Part shown: piece by piece, positions 7,980 through 21,574 of the stretch
How the letters are laid out: the number at the start of each line of letters is the position of its first letter
Position numbering within the stretch: the first letter of the stretch is position 1
Source: Dioszegia crocea
Taxonomy: Eukaryota > Basidiomycota > Tremellomycetes > Tremellales > Bulleribasidiaceae
Length of the DNA stretch: 64,000 nt
Reading direction: 5' to 3'
Assembly: GCA_001600615.1 (NCBI GenBank)
Contig: BCKK01000004.1
Span: forward strand, 124,001 to 188,000
The notes under the pieces: model-generated
What the model was told of the DNA's origin: nothing
What the model saw: only the letters and a program-made list of their open reading frames with translations
Databases searched by the model: none
Translations under genes and position numbers: made by a program

Positions 7980-8579
7980 GGAATTATATTAGCCACTCCT
8001 GGGGTTACGTTAGATAGGATCGACAACATCGTGATTCGCTTAGACATTCCTCGAGACTCGTACCTAGCTGTCTCATTCATACTTTCTAGATACCAAGGCT
8101 GTAGCTTTAGATCAGTACTACATAGACTCAGGTCAACGGGATTACTGTAGGGACACAACCGCCACTTCCGATCCGCCACCACCGAAATCGCCAAACACTC
8201 CCGAGATCGATTAGATTCTCCATCCGCTATTATATCACCTAAAATATGTACTACGTATAAAGCTACTGTACGCTCCGACCAGCAACCACACGATCCCCGT
8301 AATAAACGGACTTCCTAGCCTACAGGGCACCGGCAAGACTCCCGACTTGCTGCCCCTGACTCCCTTGCTCCCCCTGCTTCTGCTCCCCCTGGACCTCAGC
8401 CGCCAGGTTGGCCCTGGCGTTGATCCGCTCATCCGCCGATATGTTGCCATTTTGCCGCGGGAATGTAGCGCCTCTTAGATGAGCCTTTCCTGTTTCTTCA
8501 CCAATCCCCTGCCGTTGCACTCTGCAGCGCTGTGGTTATAGCTGTCGTGCGCGGGATGAAAGAGATGTCGGCGAGGACG
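7980..8579. other. Stretch upstream of the RT relic, no supported gene
   Basis: Positions 8330-8420 are C/T-rich, with TGCTCCCCCTG-like near-repeats on the + strand. It may be the eroded 5' part of the retroelement, but no RT motif is readable before about 8600. Confidence 0.3.
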
Positions 8580-9176
8580 CAGTCTGGTAGGGATCAAGGG
8601 TGGGGTGGAACCGGTGATTCGCTTGATTGACAGGGCGGTCAAGAAGGAGCTGGATGGTGACTACAAAAAGGTCACCAGCCTTGACTTCAGGAACGCCTTC
8701 AATACCCTCAGGCGAGGCATGATCGCCGACGGTCTCCGCAAACACTCCTCTGGTCTCTTCCGATGTGCCAAATGGGCGTACAGTTCCCCCACTGGTTCCA
8801 TCATCCCTGGCGCTGCTCCTGCTTCATCCCCTTTTTTTTCCAAAAGTTTATGCCAAGGAGGTCCCCTCGGGGCCCTTTCGCTCCTCGGTTGCCTACCTGC
8901 CCATCCTCGAAGCCCTCCACGCCGAGTTAGGTGATGCTTCAATCATCGTCGCCTACCTCGACGACACCTACATCCGCTCCAAATCGGTCGATCCACTCCC
9001 CAGCGGTCTCCGAGTTCTTCACCCGGCCCGAGTCCTGTCTTAAGCTCAACGTCTCCCAATGTGTAACATTCGAGCTAGACGACATCAGGAGGGACGGGCT
9101 GGAGATCCTGGGGACGATGGTGGGGCCGGCAAGCGTAAGGCGAGCGTTTCTCAACAAGAAATTTGACATTCTCTAA
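8580..9176 (+). pseudogene. Degenerate LINE-type reverse transcriptase fragment
   Basis: Three consecutive frames each carry part of a reverse transcriptase. The first (from about 8590) has GGVEPVIRLIDRAV and the motif-A-like LDFRNAFNTL, followed by motif B QGGPLG near 8855. The second has ILEALHAELG and the catalytic YxDD motif as AYLDDTYI near 8955. The third has TFELDDIRRDGLEILGTMVG and stops at 9174-9176. At least two frameshifts separate them, one close to a run of eight T at 8831-8838. The order A-B-YxDD and the spacing identify a non-LTR (LINE-like) polymerase. No endonuclease domain, target-site duplication or poly-A tail was recognised. The copy is inactive. Confidence 0.75.
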
Positions 9177-12022: not shown

Positions 12023-13986
12023 CTACCCCACTCGTCCTTCTAACCTAGGCGCAAACTCATAATCCCCCACTGGCAGCCCGTACCTCACATCGCTAACTCC
12101 CCAATCGGGCCTGGCGAGAGGTGCGGATGTAGACCAAGTCGGACCGGCACCAACGCTCATCATCTGATGTTGGCCCAGACTGTTATCTGATCCTCGGCGT
12201 AGACTCGACATGGTCCCCATTCTCGACTCTGTGCCCATCCCACCGCTCAGCCCCATCGCCGACCCAGATCCAGACACCAATCCCGACCCTGACCCCACAG
12301 CAGACTGAAGGATGACTCCCGAATTGCCAAAAGACGGATAGGGCAGGTAGTTGGCTTCGATATCCGTCACGCTCGACGGGGACGAGATGGACTCTGCAGA
12401 CTCGCCGGGGGAAGAGGTATGCGAAGAGGCGGGTGAGAGGGCACGGGCGGAGATGTAGCTGTGGCCCTTCAGTCCAGTTTGGGGATGGTGCGGACGGCTG
12501 GAGGATGCCTCGGCCCCGCCATGGGTGGAAGAGGTGGGATGGGAATGGTCGAGTCGGGTAGTCTTGGCTGATTGGGAGACGAGCGGGGTGTCGGCAGCTC
12601 GTTTCTTGCCCTGAAGATTGGGTTGGCGGAAGGACGAAGGGGTGAGACCGTGGGATGAGGCATAGAGGGGTGTGAAGGTGAATACTGATGACGACGTCGC
12701 AGCTGCCTGTTGAGATTGGGCAGCGTTGGGCTGAGAGACCTGTCGAATGGCATTCGACTTCGCCAAGGACTCTTGATCCAACTCGCCATCGGCAAAAGTC
12801 GAATCGGTCCCATAAGAATACCTCGACGATCCCGAAACGGTACGTTTCCCTCCTCCTGGGGCATAATCACCCGCAGTGGAATTGACGAATGTGGAAGTGG
12901 TAGAGAGAGAAGAGATGGAAGGGATGTGAGGCATTTGTCGGGATTGGGCTGTAAAGCCTCGAGAGGCCGTAGGAAGAGGATTGTAAGTCTCTTCTTCCGA
13001 TTCGGAGTCGGGTTCGGATTCCGCGTCGATTTCGTATAACTCGGAAGATTGGCGTCGTTTTCGAGGGTTGGAAAGGGATGGAGTGGTAGTAGGGGCGCTT
13101 CTACCATTGGCAGGTAACTAATCCATCAGTGTATATCCTCGAAACAAGGCAAAAAATGGATGGATTGGATGGGTGAAAGGGAAAAAACTCACATCGTCAA
13201 TCCACCCAATTTCGACTTTAGGTCCTTCACCCAATAGATACCTCTTCACTCCTTCAACAGCTTCACCTTATCCCCTTACTCGTTCACCTCGGCCCTGGAG
13301 AAGCATCTCAATCATAGCTCGCATTACATCCCTATCGCCTCCGGAAAAACGAACCATCATATCGGTCCATCCGGACCGACGACGCCAATTGGTCATGTCT
13401 GAATCGACTTTGGCGCGGGTGATGCCGCAGTCGGCTGCGATGGACAGTTTCTCTTGTGGGGAGGGGTAGGGGAATGAGAGGTGGTCCAGGAACCAGTGGC
13501 GGAGGGGGAGGGAGCGCGGGTCGTGTGTTGTCGAGGCGTGCGTGGTGGGTGGAGGTGAGGGGGAACGGGAGGGTTGAGGACGGCGGGTAGAGGGGCGGCA
13601 GGAGCGTTTAGAAGTGCGGAGGTTGGGCTTGGGGGTGGGTTCGGGGGATCGGTCTGAGTGTGTCAGCTACAGTTCGTCGCGAATGTCCTGATCAACTTGC
13701 CTTCACGCAGAAATACACTGCGGAGATCTGCAGACAGCGCGTCGATCATCTCGTCACTGCCTAGCCTTAGATTGTGCATAGATGAGGCGACTACCTTGAC
13801 TCTCGATGCGACCGCCGTTGCAATTTGCGCTTCCGAGTCAAGGAGATGACCGGCCACCTGAGCATGCTCAATTCGGGTCGCGATCTGGACCCAAGCAGGT
13901 ATATGAGCAGACAGAGACTCGCTCGCAGTGAGCGCGGCGAAGACATCCTGCCCAACTTTCAGTATGTCGTGTCGAAGCGCGGACAT
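12023..13986 (-). CDS. HD1-class homeodomain mating-type protein (SXI1-like)
   Basis: Transcription factor of the basidiomycete homeodomain mating-type pair; HD1 proteins act as heterodimers with HD2 from a compatible mate. Exon 1 (13701-13986) gives a helical N-terminal domain (MSALRHDILKVGQDVFAALT). A 47-nt GC-AG intron (13654-13700) leads to exon 2 with the TALE-type homeodomain: HWFLDHLSFPYPSPQEKL, GITRAKVDSDMTNWRRRSGW. The extended loop with FPYP and the RRRSGW end mark HD1 rather than HD2. A 75-nt intron (13118-13192) precedes exon 3, which has an NLS-like NPRKRRQ, an acidic patch and a Ser/Pro-rich tail. The usual W-F before the conserved Asn is replaced by D-M. The frame contains TAA at 13268-13270; a 36-nt intron (13244-13279) would remove it. 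Length is about 600 residues if spliced. It may be intact or a recent pseudogene. Confidence 0.8.
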
Positions 13987-14120
13987 TGCTTGTATGTTTG
14001 TATGTATGTATTAGGATGAAGTTGGATCGATACGCATCACAATGGCGACAAGATGACAAGAGACGGGAACCAAGCCGCGAACAAAAAGGCTGAAAATCGC
14101 AACCTGAAACGCGGGTCAGT
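13987..14120. promoter_or_regulatory. Divergent promoter between HD1 and HD2
   Basis: 134 bp separate the two start codons, so one short region must drive both genes. It contains GTATGTTTGTATGTATGTA near the HD1 start. No clear TATA box is visible. If HD2 begins at the later ATG (14214), the region is 227 bp. Confidence 0.6.
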
Positions 14121-17100
14121 ATGTACTCCCTGTCTCTATCTGCCGAAACCGCCAACATTTTCATAGCTTCATCGCCCACGAGCAAACGTCTAAACATTCA
14201 TAACCGTCTCGCTATGCTTGAGATCCTGCGCACTATCAACCGCGACGCCAAACGGATCACGGAGATCTGCACCCCCTATCGTGAAGGCTCCTCTCCACGG
14301 ATTATACGATGTTCGGGCTCAGCAATACAATTCTCGCGATCAACGCCCACATCAGCCTTGACCCTCCTCATCGAAGCATTCAACACTCCGATGCAGGAGA
14401 AGCTCGGCAAGCTGTTCGATCATCAAATCGCGCTTTCCGAAAGTGACACTCGTGCAGGATGCGAGTCCGTCCTCGACCGCTTGGAGTCGGTCGAGCACCT
14501 CGGCGGTCTACGTGATGCGGAACTCGAGGCTCTTGTCAACCAGACGTTTCAACATCAGCACGCACAGAGGGTACAGCACATCAACAATACTCTACTCGGC
14601 CTGCTTGGAAGTCATGGGCCGCAAAGGCAGCCAGACCAGCCTTCCGGGGTTTTCAGCACGGTAAGTTAACTTGATCGATGTTACCAATTATATCTGACCT
14701 CTTTGTACGCCCTGACTCTCCTCCCCCTGCAATTGCCTCTTATCATCCCAGCTGACCCCTTCAGCGCGCCGTCTCCATCCTCGAATCCGCCTTCACGCGC
14801 AAATCCACCTTGAACAACGCCGAAACCCTCGCCATCTCCCAAATGACCAAAATCACTCCAGTTCAAGTAAGCCTTTCCCCTCTCCAATTCCAGTCCGAGC
14901 CACGCTGACAAATAGGTCCGTACATGGGTAAGCCTTCCTCTCCTGTTCCACATCTCCCACCTATCCACCCCTATCTTCTCCATTCCCATCCCCCCCTATC
15001 CCTCACTCCTGGCTGCCTCTTTTCGCCACTTCCCTCATCCCCTTCACTCATCCACTCACCCCCCTATCCACAACAATAAGCTCTTTGCAGATTTTTCAAA
15101 GTTCAGGGCGGGAAGAAGGGGATACACACAACTTGTGTGTTTCAGGACACTTACTTTTGAAACACCGCCCTTATTGTCCCCGGAATTACCTAAAGGAGTA
15201 ATAGTGGCACTTTTTGACTCCGGCCCCCACTTTCCCCCACCCCCTTCTGCTTTCTTTCCTCTTCTTCTTGCCCTACCGTGACCTCTTTGCCTACTCAGTC
15301 AAACTCAGCTAATGGCCAGTTCCAAAATCGTCGTAATCGTCAACGTAACGGACGCCCCTCATCCCGCCCTAGTAAACCCAAAGATGATTCCCCCGACTCT
15401 GACCCCGACCCCCGACCCATCTCTTCCCTCCCCCGCCGTAAGGCCCAACCAGCATACGATGACACATTCGGTACCACCCCCGTAGCCAACGGTCAAGGTC
15501 GTCGAGTCAAAGCAATGCCTAAACGTGCATTCCCTCCTTCACACCCACACCAAGCCAGTCTATCTACCTTATCTGCTTTAGCTTCATCCGCTCTGGCCAC
15601 TCAGTCCCAACCCCCTCTCGGTCTCACACCCAACTACAGTCGGGACAGAACCGGACCATCGCCTGCACCCAGTATGGCCCGTTCCCTCTCTGCTCATTCT
15701 TCCGCTAGCGAAGTATCCTCCGTCGACCCCTCTGGCGGATTCAGCTCGTTGCTCATCAATCCCCACGATGCCCCCACCCAAGTCACCCTCCCTACGTTCC
15801 CATCGTTCAATGGCGATATGTCATCCTTGGCCGTCGGTGGAGAGTATACGATGGAGCAGTATACCGCCGGAGGCGAAGAAGGACCAGGCTGGGGTCTCAA
15901 TTTCGCCCCTCCCCAAATGGCAATCTTTGACTCGCTCAATGGGTTGGATTTCGACTTTGATCTATTGAACTATGATCTGGGTTTGGCGGGAATGGGTATG
16001 GGCGATGGGGTCGGGGGATTATCAGCATTGGATAATCTCACCCTTGTTGCTACTCCAAACTTCACCGAATCGGGTTCGACGTCAGGATCACCTACTCGTC
16101 TCCCTCCGTCTGTCGGTCCTGCCCAATCATCCTCTTCTTTAGGGGCGGGTGGAGAGATCTCATCAGCCGATTGGGCATGGGCAGGGTCTATAGCTGAGCA
16201 AATGGCGGCGTTATTCGAAGGTGAGGGTAAGAATTGGATGGCGGAGATGGAAGATGCTGTTGCGGCTTCTGCTTCTGCTTCTGCGGCTGTAGGAGTGGAG
16301 AGTGAAGAGAAGGAACCGGTAGTCTTGGAGGTCATTGATGTACTGGATGAAGAAGCAGAAAAGGAGAAGGAAGAAGATTCCCCATCTCAATCGGAATCCG
16401 GTTCGGGTACAGGATCAGGTTCTCGATCCGAATCTCGATCAGTCACACCTCCTCCTCTCAATCCTATCTTCTTGACTACAACTACGGAAGCTACACCCAC
16501 TCGACCCCTCTCTACTTCAGCTCAGACATTCACCCCGTCTCATCCTGCACCAATCCCACAATCCGCACCTCAAGGCCAGGGGATGGACTTCGGCAGTCTA
16601 TCAATCCCAATTCCCTACCATCCCCAGAACAACCACAAATATCACACACACCATCAACCCACCCACCACCACCAGCCCACCCACCCTTACTCCCTATCCT
16701 CACAACCCCACCCACACGCTAATCCCAATCCGGGTCCATACGACTCCCTCGGTGATCCCTTCTACACATACACGTCCGATCCTCACTCTCGGAATACTTC
16801 ATATGGCTCTTCCGTATCGTCTGGATCTAGCGTACGGATCATAACGCCGCCTTCTGGTGAGTATACGTATTTCCAGGGTGCCCCCCAGGGGTTTCAGGGT
16901 CAGCAAGGTCAGCAAGGTCAGCAAGGTGGAGAGTATCGGTATGCCCCGACAGGGATGGGGATGGGGATGGGGATGGGGATGGGGATGGGGATGGGGATGG
17001 GGCATCAGATGAATGACGGACAGGGGCAAAATATGGGGGCGGAAGGGAAATCTTCTCAGGGAGAGTATACTCAACACCCTCACCCACACCCACACGCCCA

Positions 17101-17764
17101 ATCTCACACTCGCCAGCCTTCCTTCACGTCAATCCCTCCCCATGCTTCGGTACCGGGTCAGATGGGTCAGGCGTATCCCTATCCGGGGTACGACGCTATG
17201 CCTTTCTACGCTTTCGACCCTTATGCCCAACCTCAGCAATACATCCCCCATTCTGGTCCTCCTCCAAATTTCCACACTCAGCAGCAGCACCCCTACCATC
17301 ATCACCCCCAACAACAGCCGCAAAGCCAAGAGGCGATTGCCCCTCCGCCCCATATTTACTCCCACACCAATCCATCGGCATCGTACTCGGGCTCAGGGCC
17401 CGTAGAAGGGGCTTACATCCTCCATCCGCCAAATGCGAGTCTGTTCTACCCCCCTCTTCCTCTCTCCCACCCTCACTCTCACCCTATCTCACATGCCAAC
17501 GCCAAGGTCAACCCCTCGGTCCCAAGTTCGGCCCCCATCTCAGTTGGCGATACGCGCGTACCCACTCCGGCGGCTGTCCTGGAGAAAGCACCAGTGGCGG
17601 TATCGGGCGACAAGGCTACGGGCGGGGATAAAGAGGCTGAGATTGAGCCGGAGATGGTGGCAGAGACCGAGGAGGAGAAGGCGAAAGCGGCTCAAAGGGC
17701 TGAAGAGGAGGAACGGTGGACTAAAGGTGTTTTGGCTTTTGATTCGCCTTGCTCTGTGGAGTAG
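14121..17764 (+). CDS. HD2-class homeodomain mating-type protein (SXI2-like)
   Basis: Partner class of the HD1 gene, divergently transcribed. Exon 1 (14121-14660) encodes an N-terminal dimerisation-type region (MLEILRTINRDAKRITEI). Exon 2 (14765-14866) carries helices 1-2 of a canonical homeodomain (RAVSILESAFTRKSTLNNAE). Exon 3 (14916-14927) is 12 nt and encodes VRTW. Exon 4 (15320-17764) begins FQNRRNRQR, completing the WFQNRR recognition helix expected of HD2. The frame is consistent across all four. The predicted protein is about 1,030 aa. The 800-residue C-terminal part is Ser/Pro/His/Gln-rich, with an acidic hydrophobic patch (LDFDFDLLNYDLGLAG) that could be an activation domain, and a Met-Gly repeat. 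An ATG at 15278 inside intron 3 is open into exon 4 but would start within the homeodomain. Start choice between 14121 and 14214 is open. Confidence 0.85.
15124..15140. repeat. Perfect 8-bp inverted repeat in HD2 intron 3
   Basis: ACACACAA-C-TTGTGTGT forms a hairpin-capable palindrome in the 392-nt intron, with GGGCGGG and CCGCCC arms on either side (about 15107 and 15165). Meaning unknown. Confidence 0.5.
16952..17003 (+). repeat. In-frame hexanucleotide microsatellite (GGGATG)n in HD2
   Basis: About eight GGGATG units encode alternating Met-Gly. The period is a multiple of three, so length changes would not shift the frame. A shorter in-frame array (CAGCAAGGT-type, QQG) lies just upstream around 16898-16925. 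Confidence 0.9.
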
Positions 17765-18234
17765 GCTGAGTTGGTGGTGGAACGGGATGACATCAGGATA
17801 TGGATGTGAGGGCGGGCGAGTGGGAAGTAAATTTGAGGCCAGATCTGGCGTGTGGACTTTGGACTTTAGATGATTGGGGGATGGTGCTGCAGCGGTTGTG
17901 TTGCAGATTGAAGAGGAGGTGTATAGATCAGGTCAGCGATAAAATTTAGTCAGCGGTTCCATGTCTCAGTATTGGCTCAAGTTAGATATGGTAGTCCCGT
18001 TCCAACTCAAGGCTCATGTATTGGTCTTACATCTAGTACTGCGTCAGTACGTCGGCACATTTTGCCCCTTGGCGACATGTCCATTCCACACTCATACGTG
18101 TCAAGACGAATAAAAGGTGCTTTAGGTCATTTACTAAATGACTGCAGAATGAAGAAGCTAGTGTGCATAGTGCGTGTGGCTAGCTAGCTAGCTAGACAAT
18201 ATGACCCTGAAAGCCCGGCGGAGGAGGCGGAACA
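17765..18234. other. Intergenic between HD2 and gene B
   Basis: 3' flank of HD2 and of gene B, whose genes converge. A (TAGC)n microsatellite lies at about 18177-18194. No gene seen. Confidence 0.6.
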
Positions 18235-18959
18235 TTACCACGGTTTATTCAAAGTCGCGGGATAACCATCAGCATCTCGATAATTCCGGAGATGGAGATG
18301 GTACCACCTCGTTCTCTCTCGAGGCAGACTGGTGGGTGTCTTGCAGAAGACATTGAATGCCGACACAACGTGTCCATTGATCACAGCCGTCTGCATTCTC
18401 GTTGGGTCAAAGGGGTCAGGTTCAAGAGCCCGTGTCCAAATACTGAATATGGTCAGTCGAAGGCTAGCTCACACCATGGCCCAACGGATAGCAAGTCACA
18501 CTGACTTGTAAGTATAGGCCCGTCTCTCATCTTCATCATCAGATACCCAATCCGAACACACGCTGACAAAATCTTGCAAGATCTCAAGGGCGTCAGTATC
18601 GATCGATCCAATGGCCGGCACTGGCAGGTCTGATTGCTGGTAATTCCAAAGCGTGTGTCCATTCTCGTAGATGCTCTTGACTGCTTGTGTGATCCAAGTC
18701 CTGTGAGTCAGGATAAGCGGCTATTTTCCTTTCTTTGCTCATGAGGGGAGGTCAATACAGCGCGATAGGTAGATTCGAAAATCTGTCATGTATGTAACGG
18801 GATATATTCGGGGATCAGGATTCTTACTCACACCGTATCACCTTGGCCATACGCAATGATCTGACTGTTCAGTCTCTCAGCCGGTGCTTGCCAAGCTGAG
18901 TCTTCGGTTGATGGTGGAGCTGATTCGTCAGAGTCAAATTCAGATCCACAGGGGTCCAT
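18235..18959 (-). CDS. Unknown protein B, tandem paralogue of gene A
   Basis: Three exons with two introns. Exon 1 (from ATG 18959) ends RLNSQIIAYGQGDT. Exon 2 encodes TWITQAVKSIYENGHTLWNY and DFVSVCSDWVSDDEDERRAY. Exon 3 encodes the conserved FNVFCKTPTSLPRERTRWYH and ends NKPW at TAA 18235-18237. Gene A has introns at the same places and phases and matching blocks (IIAYG, NGxTLW, FNVFCxTPxxLP, TRWxHL), so the two are duplicates. No signal peptide, membrane segment or known domain is visible. Length is about 180 aa. The donor of intron 2 (GTCAGT) is weaker than usual. Function unknown; placement beside the mating-type pair is the only context. Confidence 0.65.
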
Positions 18960-19399
18960 GACGAGTGATCAAGAGGGTAAGAAGTAAGTGTAGAAAGTAT
19001 GAAGTCAGAAACGTCAACGAAGGACATGGGAGTTCTCACCTCTTACATACATTCACTCGAGGCTCCGGATGCCTGACTACGCCCCAAAAGCACGCCATGG
19101 GCCGACCTGCAGACAGTTCAAAGGATCATCAGTAACACGGGCGTATGACGCCAGGCTCACCCGTGTCGTATCCTCTGTGAAAGTAAGTGCAAGTCAGCGA
19201 GGTTCTAGAATGGACTGAGAGCTGGAAGATACGCAGACCCGTAAGCTGATCTCCTCTAGCCTTTCCTCATATCGGACAAGTCAGCTGTAAGTAGACGTGA
19301 AATGTGAGGGTGTACGTAGCTGCATATTATGAGTATACAGCTGGAGGCTGTAGCTAGCCTAGTTCGATGTCCCGACTGCTGTTTAAAGATACAGTATAG
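18960..19399. other. Intergenic between genes B and A
   Basis: Upstream region of B and downstream region of A. No ORF with splice support. Confidence 0.5.
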
Positions 19400-20026
19400 T
19401 CAGCGGGAGACTTGAGGATATCCATCAACATCATCAATTGTCCCAGTGTCAAGATGATGCCACCTCGTCTTGGCGTTTGGAAGAGTGTCGGGTGTCGGAC
19501 AGAACACATTGAGCGCGTGGAAAGAGCCGAGAGGTGTATCGATCGAGTGTATAGACCTGCCGTGAGGCAAAGCAATGTCGCCAGCTTGCCAAACCCTGAT
19601 ATACGAGTCAGCGAACTACCCCAAAGCGGGAACTTGTACTCACTGTCTGGTGTATGACCGTTTTTCCGCTTCGGATATCCACGCAGAACCCTCATCGATA
19701 AATTTGCGAATGAGCTTGTTGGTTTCGCGTTGTCGCTCTGTCGTAGGCATGTCAGCGAGATCAGTAGGGGGGTTCAGATCCCATAGCGTGCCACCGTTAT
19801 CGTAAGCAAATCTAGCAGCTAGCACGACCGAATCGCTAAGGTAGGCCATCAGCAAGGCTTAGTGCAAAGGAGTAGAAGTTCGGGATTGGGATATAACTCA
19901 CACCATCTCCTGAGATCCATATGCGATGATCTGGCTGTATGGCCGAGCACCGGAGCAGGAAGAGATGGATGTGAGTGTGGGATCTTGGGACATGGTGGAT
20001 GGTGGAGCTTCAGGCTGGTTGGACAT
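19400..20026 (-). CDS. Unknown protein A, tandem paralogue of gene B
   Basis: Three exons. Exon 1 starts MSNQPEAPPSTMSQDP and ends YSQIIAYGSQEMV. Exon 2 (acceptor CTACCTTAG) encodes VVLAARFAYDNGGTLWDL and RKFIDEGSAWISEAEKRSY. Exon 3 (acceptor TATATCAG) encodes VWQAGDIALPHGRS and FHALNVFCPTPDTLPNAKTR, stopping at TGA 19400-19402. Frame continuity across both introns, and agreement with B at the same intron positions, make the model convincing. About 165 aa, no recognised family. It is probably soluble, since no hydrophobic segments are seen. Confidence 0.68.
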
Positions 20027-20199
20027 GGTAGGTTGATTGAGTGAGGAAAGGATAAGATGAGCGATGAAGATGGAAGTTGGGGATTTCAGCCCTGTTATGA
20101 ACTCCGCCCTGATGCACAATCCTAAAAGTCCGCCTGTATCGCCGACATCATGAAAGGTGTTATCTTGCCGAGCGGTTTGAAACGTCAAGACTCACCCTC

Positions 20200-20440
20200 T
20201 GACATCATTCTGGGATGTTTCGTCAGAGTCGATCCTTTGTGGTGACAACACACGGTGGATGTGTTTGGTTGATTCTCCGAGGTGTTCTGGAAAGCACCAT
20301 AGTCGTAGAGCGTCGAGGTCGACATCAGCCCCAGCGCATCTTCTCGCCTGTCGTCCAGCTTCCAGTATGTAGACCGTACTTTGCGCCGTCGATGACTTGT
20401 TCGGCATCCTGTGTCCATCGATGATTCGACCTCGGGTGTC
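20200..20440 (-). pseudogene. Decayed third copy of the A/B family
   Basis: Two reading frames carry weak matches in the right order: QVIDGAKYGLHTGSW, corresponding to the exon-2 block before NGxTLW, and ADVDLDALRLWCF, corresponding to IDTDALEILQDF of B. They are in different frames and no third exon was found. Likely a truncated paralogue upstream of A. Confidence 0.35.
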
Positions 20441-20618
20441 TGTACGGTAGTCAGAGTACATGAAGAGCAGACAGTCAGTTTCGGCAGGAGCTTTCAGCTA
20501 AGCACGATCCAGAACCCCGACTTTAGCACCAACACTCATGCATTCCAAACCGTCACAGGTCTGTTTCTACAGAGCTTAGCTCCCCACCATCCGCCAAGAT
20601 CTACACTGAGCGAAAGAT

Positions 20619-21574
20619 CTATTCCTCCTCCTCGGCCTCATCCTGGTCAACCTTGAAGTATCGGAGGGAGTAGGTGTCTTTGGAAGTGGCAACGACACTA
20701 TTGGGTCAGCTTGGATTCTTAACCTGACCAGCTTGTCCTGCTTCCCAGGGGGGGTGTGTGAAAGGAAGGGGTAAGCTTACCGGAGGAAGTTCTCGAACGA
20801 GTTCTTCTTGAGGTGCTTCTTTGTCAAGTACTGAATAGTCAGCAACCTCTTTAACTTTGCCTATAGCGGAACCGATGACTCCGAAAGGAGGTTGAGCTGC
20901 GGGCAGCTGCTTGGCGTGGAGAGGGCTCACCTTCAAGTATCGCTTGGAGAAGGGGATCAGGGAGGTAAGGACGAGCTTGTTGCCTGTGGTGTCAGTTTGG
21001 GCAAATTTGAAGATTCGCATAGTCCGAGCGTCTGGTCCTCCTCTTGCGCAATGCAGCGTATACCAATTCCCCGCCTTGCGACATCCAGTCACTATCGTCC
21101 GTGCAATGCGAGGAGTATCCATCGCCATCTCCCATCCCATATCCTTTATATCCTTTGCCCGATACACATCCCTCATCTCCAAATGCCTCCAACCAACTCT
21201 TCGCACCATCCCCCGCACCACACCCATCCCTGACGCAAACCAACAACTCACCCTCTCGGCTAACGATAACATTGTCGCCCAACTGTCCAGCCTTGCCCTC
21301 AACCTTGATCCTGTCCTGCAAGAACTTCTCGAACGCAGCGGGGTCAAATACGCTGTCGGCAGCCGGCACACTGTAGTCAATGTAGAACTTGTGCAGCGGC
21401 TTGGCGGCGGTGGGCTTGGAAGCGGCGGGGGTGTTGGCTTTGGGCTATGAGGTCAGTATATCAGTTTTGAGGCGAATCATAAGTCCGAGGTCTAGAGAGG
21501 GCGTATTTGCATAGGACGAAGGCCCCAATGCTATAGGATCATATGAACGGGAAGAGGGGTAGATCACGCACCAT
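20619..21574 (-). CDS. RPL22: 60S ribosomal protein eL22
   Basis: Large-subunit ribosomal protein. Exon 1 is the ATG alone (21572-21574), followed by a 127-nt intron. Exon 2 (21252-21444) encodes KPLHKFYIDYSVPAADS and FLQDRIKVEGKAGQLGDNVI. After a 258-nt intron (20994-21251) come NKLVLTSLIPFSKRYLK, an intron, YLTKKHLKKNSFENFLR, another intron, and VVATSKDTYSLRYFKV ending in an acidic tail (DQDEAEEE) at TAG 20619-20621. All blocks match eL22 in order and the total, about 125 aa, is the normal length. RPL22 lies inside the MAT locus of Cryptococcus neoformans, so its place about 3 kb beyond HD2 supports the identity of this region. Confidence 0.95.

Follow-up and report, generated by a model that had tools for sequence, protein, structure and literature searches.

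Does a pair of homeodomain genes lying back to back in the genome of a basidiomycete yeast constitute its HD mating-type locus, and if so, does that locus stand apart from the pheromone receptor genes? The genome in question comprises 20.57 Mb in 17 contigs, and the window analysed here is a 64-kb stretch of contig C4 (C4:124001-188000); positions without a contig name are those of the window. The two genes occupy 12023-13986 on the minus strand and 14214-17764 on the plus strand, and they are transcribed divergently from a short shared region of 227 bp between the two start codons (13987-14213). An earlier note on this DNA had read the pair as an HD mating-type locus. That reading gains support from the domain classes of the two products, their divergent orientation, the one genomic place listed for each, the homology of HD2 to a Tremellales protein and the linkage to RPL22. 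On these grounds, and from the data of the single allele in this genome, we consider it very probable that the pair forms the HD mating-type locus of a Tremellales yeast which, to judge from the one HD2 homologue, probably belongs to Dioszegia or a close relative, with divergent HD1 (TALE) and HD2 (canonical) transcription factor genes that would form a cross-allele HD1/HD2 switch. The locus type itself is well known; the novelty lies in the taxon and in a splicing puzzle in HD1. Within the openly licensed literature, we found no description of a mating-type, MAT or homeodomain locus for Dioszegia or Bulleribasidiaceae, and the paper on the D. hungarica genome uses none of the words mating, homeodomain and pheromone in its main text (PMC9713403).

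Two divergent homeodomain genes

The minus-strand gene is SXI1/bE-like HD1, for which our working model has exons 13986-13701, 13653-13280 and 13117-12023, the stop codon at 12023-12025 ending the open frame, and a product of 584 aa once a 162-nt intron is removed. The TALE homeodomain core lies at 13376-13495 (minus). The FPYP and WRRRSGW motifs, of which the earlier note had used FPYP and RRRSGW to recognize an HD1 protein, are present, and the spliced product matches Pfam Homeobox_KN at 1.7e-12 (47.4 bits, cut-off 24). When compared with solved structures, HD1 retrieved 17 sequences at 0.1, with the Meis TALE proteins first (3.1e-6) and Extradenticle and Pbx next. Intron 1 (13654-13706, minus) has one acceptor, shared by two possible donors, a GT at 13706 (53 nt) and a GC at 13700 (47 nt). 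A model in which this intron was GC-AG alone was dropped, the GT donor being equally frame-preserving. In a single-sequence fold prediction of moderate confidence (mean pLDDT 65.7), exon 1 forms four helices, and this predicted fold is compatible with a dimerisation region.

Relatives of HD1 were found for its C-terminal part. The sole protein retrieved with the full-length query was P0001, a 329-aa protein with a C-terminal match of 41% identity over 63% of the query; by global alignment with the 364 residues of exon 3, 165 of 310 aligned residues are identical. P0001 stops upstream of the position where a homeodomain would be expected, and a search with the homeodomain region only, in which 38 candidates were scored, gave no protein at E 10 or better. 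The full-length searches with HD1 and HD2 scored 7996 and 7992 candidates, respectively, and may thus have missed relatives.

The plus-strand gene is SXI2/bW-like HD2 and encodes 1001 aa in four exons (14214-14660, 14765-14866, 14916-14927 and 15320-17764), separated by introns of 104, 49 and 392 nt; once spliced, the frame is open throughout, with the stop codon at 17762-17764. The stops of both genes agree with the ends given in the earlier note. Residues 147-197, placed on the exons, locate the homeodomain coding region to 14652-15349 (plus), where it is interrupted by all three introns. One of its exons is only 12 nt long (14916-14927, plus) and encodes VRTW, a string also present in the D. 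hungarica homologue described below. The earlier note had assigned the gene to HD2 by its WFQNRRNRQR helix, and the helix is indeed there, but not in one open frame, since it is encoded across an intron, after the VRTW exon. The 392-nt intron (14928-15319, plus) was considered as a possible site of a repeated element, which was ruled out: its part 15075-15300 matches only itself genome-wide. The product scores 6.5e-12 against Pfam Homeodomain (45.5 bits, cut-off 22.9), and among 86 solved structures retrieved at 0.1 the first is yeast MATa1 (3.6e-8). A profile check of both proteins, as had been proposed, gives homeodomain matches above the curated cut-offs for each, Homeobox_KN in HD1 and Homeodomain in HD2, which is beyond what chance would produce.

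A phmmer search with HD2 found one homologue, the 934-aa D. hungarica homeobox protein MKK02DRAFT_30789 (P0002; 344 bits, 8.6e-97). The BLASTP line for this protein reports 33% identity over just 3% of the query, so that the similarity along the length rests on the phmmer score and a global alignment. In that alignment the two proteins share their start (MLE...), a homeodomain with VRTWFQNRRNRQR and matching blocks through to the C-terminal end, and yet differ in every part: 51 of 141 aligned residues are identical in the N-terminus, 41 of 59 in the homeodomain and 143 of 254 in residues 200-480. For residues 481-1001 the count is 137 of 420, and since the C-terminus is divergent as well, the yeast studied here is probably a species other than D. 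hungarica. Because the D. hungarica protein starts alike, we place the HD2 start at 14214, and the gap between the genes is then 227 bp; the 134 bp given earlier fits solely an upstream in-frame ATG at 14121. For HD2 exon 1, helices were also predicted, with a pLDDT (49.3) too low in confidence to read a dimerisation region from them.

Across the genome, Homeobox_KN has one place among the matches listed, which is HD1, and the first 450 aa of HD2 likewise have one. A search with the general homeodomain profile PF00046 listed four places elsewhere; HD2 escaped it, presumably owing to the introns that divide the gene. Since the genome searches were run exon by exon, these counts of homeodomain places are lower bounds; one listed place each for HD1 and HD2 fits a haploid or collapsed assembly. 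Another homeodomain match lies at C2:1125167-1125316 (minus), about 69 kb from a pheromone receptor gene.

The in-frame TAA of HD1

The homeodomain frame of HD1 meets a TAA codon at 13268-13270 (minus), 3' of the homeodomain, which the earlier note had missed. The stop could lie within the 162-nt intron of our model, within a shorter in-frame intron of 36-72 nt, or it could truncate the protein; splicing is favoured, because exon 3 is open through 364 codons. The TAA sits just past a donor-like GTAAGG at 13279, and when this site is joined to the TTAG ending at 13118 (proposed intron 2, 13118-13279, minus, 162 nt), the stop is removed in frame and the 584-aa product results. We use this intron as the working model because GTAAGG looks like a good splice donor by consensus, and because the resulting exon 3 start agrees with P0001. 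There are, however, many other in-frame ways around the TAA. A donor at 13287 gives introns of 36, 39, 63 and 72 nt and the donor at 13279 gives another of 36 nt, all of them frame-preserving, and those of 63 and 72 nt are of ordinary length. These five shorter introns need a downstream 75-nt intron to be spliced as well. Judged by the mean lengths of 59-67 bp in the four-genome table of the D. hungarica paper (PMC9713403), 162 nt is long for an intron, yet HD2 has one of 392 nt.

The sequence immediately past the TAA complicates the choice. A stop-free stretch of 75 nt (13193-13267, minus; GEAVEGVKRYLLGEGPKVEIGWIDD) looks coding-like and is followed directly by a 75-nt GTGAGT...TTAG intron, although in the working model it falls within the 162-nt intron. 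Its coding score is at or above that of 89% of 146 training-exon windows, and is reached by 140 of 7886 stop-free 75-nt windows across the whole 64-kb window (overlapping, coding windows included) and by 2 of 138 off-frame exon windows; the score is indicative only, having been trained on ten self-chosen open frames of the same window, some of which have no Pfam match. The pyrimidine share of these 25 codons is 33%, compared with 45-68% in the other introns measured.

A mating-type locus whose HD1 is cut off past the homeodomain, at 223 aa (221 with the other first donor), would account for a TAA that sits in the homeodomain frame (13270-13268) and for the 25 coding-like, pyrimidine-poor codons that run from it into the GTGAGT...TTAG intron. 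Such a strain would mate through its own HD2 pairing with the HD1 of its partner, and C. amylolentus strains minus one HD gene are described as keeping the ability to mate with most partners (PMC13059729). The donor-like GTAAGG just 5' of the TAA nevertheless joins exon 3 in frame, the five further introns of 36-72 nt preserve the frame too, and an assembly error is a possible source of the TAA. Moreover, the 364 open codons of exon 3 and its similarity to P0001 mean that any truncation would have to be recent, and we regard it as quite unlikely. An allele in early loss, or two isoforms, of 223 aa when unspliced and 584 aa when intron 2 is spliced, is a tentative possibility to which we give a small probability. 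If it were true, a species with unlinked loci would be at the first step toward the one-HD-gene state, which is that described for bipolar species. Removal of the TAA by splicing remains our preferred reading.

Neighbours of the pair and separation from the receptors

The ribosomal protein gene RPL22, which had been placed 3 kb from the pair, is represented by part of an exon on the minus strand (about 21232-21396), roughly 3.5 kb past the HD2 stop, with a match to positions 3-57 of the 110 in Ribosomal_L22e (1e-14). On the other side, 35 kb beyond HD1, a PLDc match at C4:100936 is a candidate SPO14. No CAP1 was found on C4, and the sole GT90 match listed sits on C3. In K. heveanensis and T. 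mesenterica the HD genes are reported to have RPL22, SPO14 and CAP1 as linked neighbours (PMC2873909), and linkage to RPL22 is a feature that these two species share with the locus here.

Some features of the flanks may be recorded for their own sake. Between HD2 and RPL22, at 18200-20200 (minus), two to three related small gene pieces can be seen by eye among the ORFs; a nucleotide self-comparison of 17901-20800 gave zero matches. The left flank of HD1 at 8001-8555 contains pieces for which nine further matches were found, spread over C7, C3 and C1; seven of the nine are no more than 45 kb from the start of a contig. A YLDD motif, noticed by eye in the frame 8723-9043, may hint at a reverse transcriptase near 8560-9043; a Pfam scan of the ORF 8560-8931 gave no match at 0.1. 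Measured from the start of C4, the HD pair is 136-142 kb inward, and a check of the contig's first 10 kb for three telomere-like patterns found none of them. An Rfam scan of the 64-kb window at gathering cut-offs returned no match.

STE3-type receptor matches were found on C2 and C11, in three pieces each, and none is listed on C4. Even if the nearest contig ends were joined, the HD pair would be about 1.3 Mb from the STE3 of C2 and, with C4 and C11 joined, about 0.43 Mb from that of C11. This physical separation, with the HD pair on C4 and the receptors on other contigs, agrees with a tetrapolar-type arrangement in which the HD locus of this Tremellales yeast is unlinked to the receptors. The receptor on C11 (C11:287550-288634) is a second member of the STE3 family and possibly lies outside mating-type function.

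The same distances bear on whether the pair could belong to a fused, bipolar MAT such as that of pathogenic Cryptococcus or Trichosporonales. RPL22 adjoins the HD genes here, and it is described in or near fused loci as well (PMC6730849; PMC2873909), but a C4 with no listed STE3 match, receptors on C2 and C11 and some 1.3 Mb and 0.43 Mb left by the nearest joins make a fused locus very improbable. Both HD genes are also retained, which speaks in the same direction, although the fused locus of K. fici is reported to retain both (PMC12510652). We hold it to be equally improbable that HD1 and HD2 are ordinary homeodomain genes with no mating role, divergent by chance. The four other PF00046 places do indicate that the genome has homeodomain genes elsewhere; the sole TALE-type place among the matches listed is, however, the HD1 of this pair, and the pairing of HD1 with HD2, their divergence, the RPL22 linkage and the MATa1 best structure jointly indicate MAT.

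Relation to known mating-type loci

What the genome displays directly is the anatomy of the two genes, their domain classes, their copy number within the reach of the searches, their neighbours and their separation from the receptors; what the pair does may be supposed from relatives, in which such proteins act through heterodimerisation, self/non-self discrimination and developmental control. By that analogy, when two cells with different alleles fuse, the N-terminal regions would let the HD1 of one parent pair with the HD2 of the other, and the resulting heterodimer would bind DNA and turn on dikaryotic growth and sexual development. The growth of filaments and the later sexual steps would then be under the control of the cross-allele heterodimer, whereas HD1 and HD2 of the same allele would form no active pair. 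For mating in C. amylolentus, a single heteroallelic Sxi1-Sxi2 pair is described as both necessary and sufficient (PMC13059729).

The divergent HD1/HD2 arrangement is reported as standard in the group (PMC2873909; PMC12510652). Tetrapolar Cryptococcus and Kwoniella are described as having an HD locus made up of the two-gene pair alone, which in Kwoniella is mostly subtelomeric (PMC12510652). The present locus is like those of K. heveanensis, C. amylolentus and other tetrapolar Tremellales in its divergent pair with P/R elsewhere (PMC2873909; PMC12510652), a comparison made with published descriptions. It differs from these SXI1/SXI2 loci in belonging, by its HD2 match, to another lineage, in the in-frame stop past the HD1 homeodomain and in that no CAP1 was found nearby. 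RPL22 is linked here, as in Tremella, Kwoniella and Cryptococcus. The fused MAT of C. neoformans likewise has an SXI gene and RPL22 (PMC2873909), but it carries one HD gene per mating type with STE3 linked, whereas here both HD genes are present and the STE3 matches are on other contigs. More distantly, the bE/bW pair of the U. maydis b locus is an HD1/HD2 pair related to Sxi1/Sxi2, a likeness again by description (PMC2873909).

The present data give a Dioszegia-like lineage a divergent HD1/HD2 pair that is linked to RPL22 and lies away from the receptor locus. This arrangement fits a published model that regards unlinked loci as the more ancient condition in Tremellales (PMC6730849). The N-termini of HD1 and HD2, STE3 and a pheromone candidate could serve as markers for finding out whether these yeasts mate.

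The STE3 of C2 is accompanied by two STE12-like places and a CAAX pheromone-like ORF. The STE12-like places (C2:1181924-1182594 and 1192987-1193674) are 11 kb apart and 67.9% identical over 479 aligned columns. STE12 is described as apparently truncated in Kwoniella a2 strains (PMC12510652), and by that precedent one of the two copies may be a remnant. A scan of six stretches for the CAAX pattern gave four ORFs, among them this one (C2:1186543-1186716, 57 aa); at 15.4 bits it falls below the cut-off of 25 for Pfam MFA1_2. It holds two copies of DAENNRSMWTYGCVVA, and a degenerate MWTYGCVV pattern with up to two mismatches occurs genome-wide at just those two copies, so that the pheromone-like precursor would have two mature-like units.
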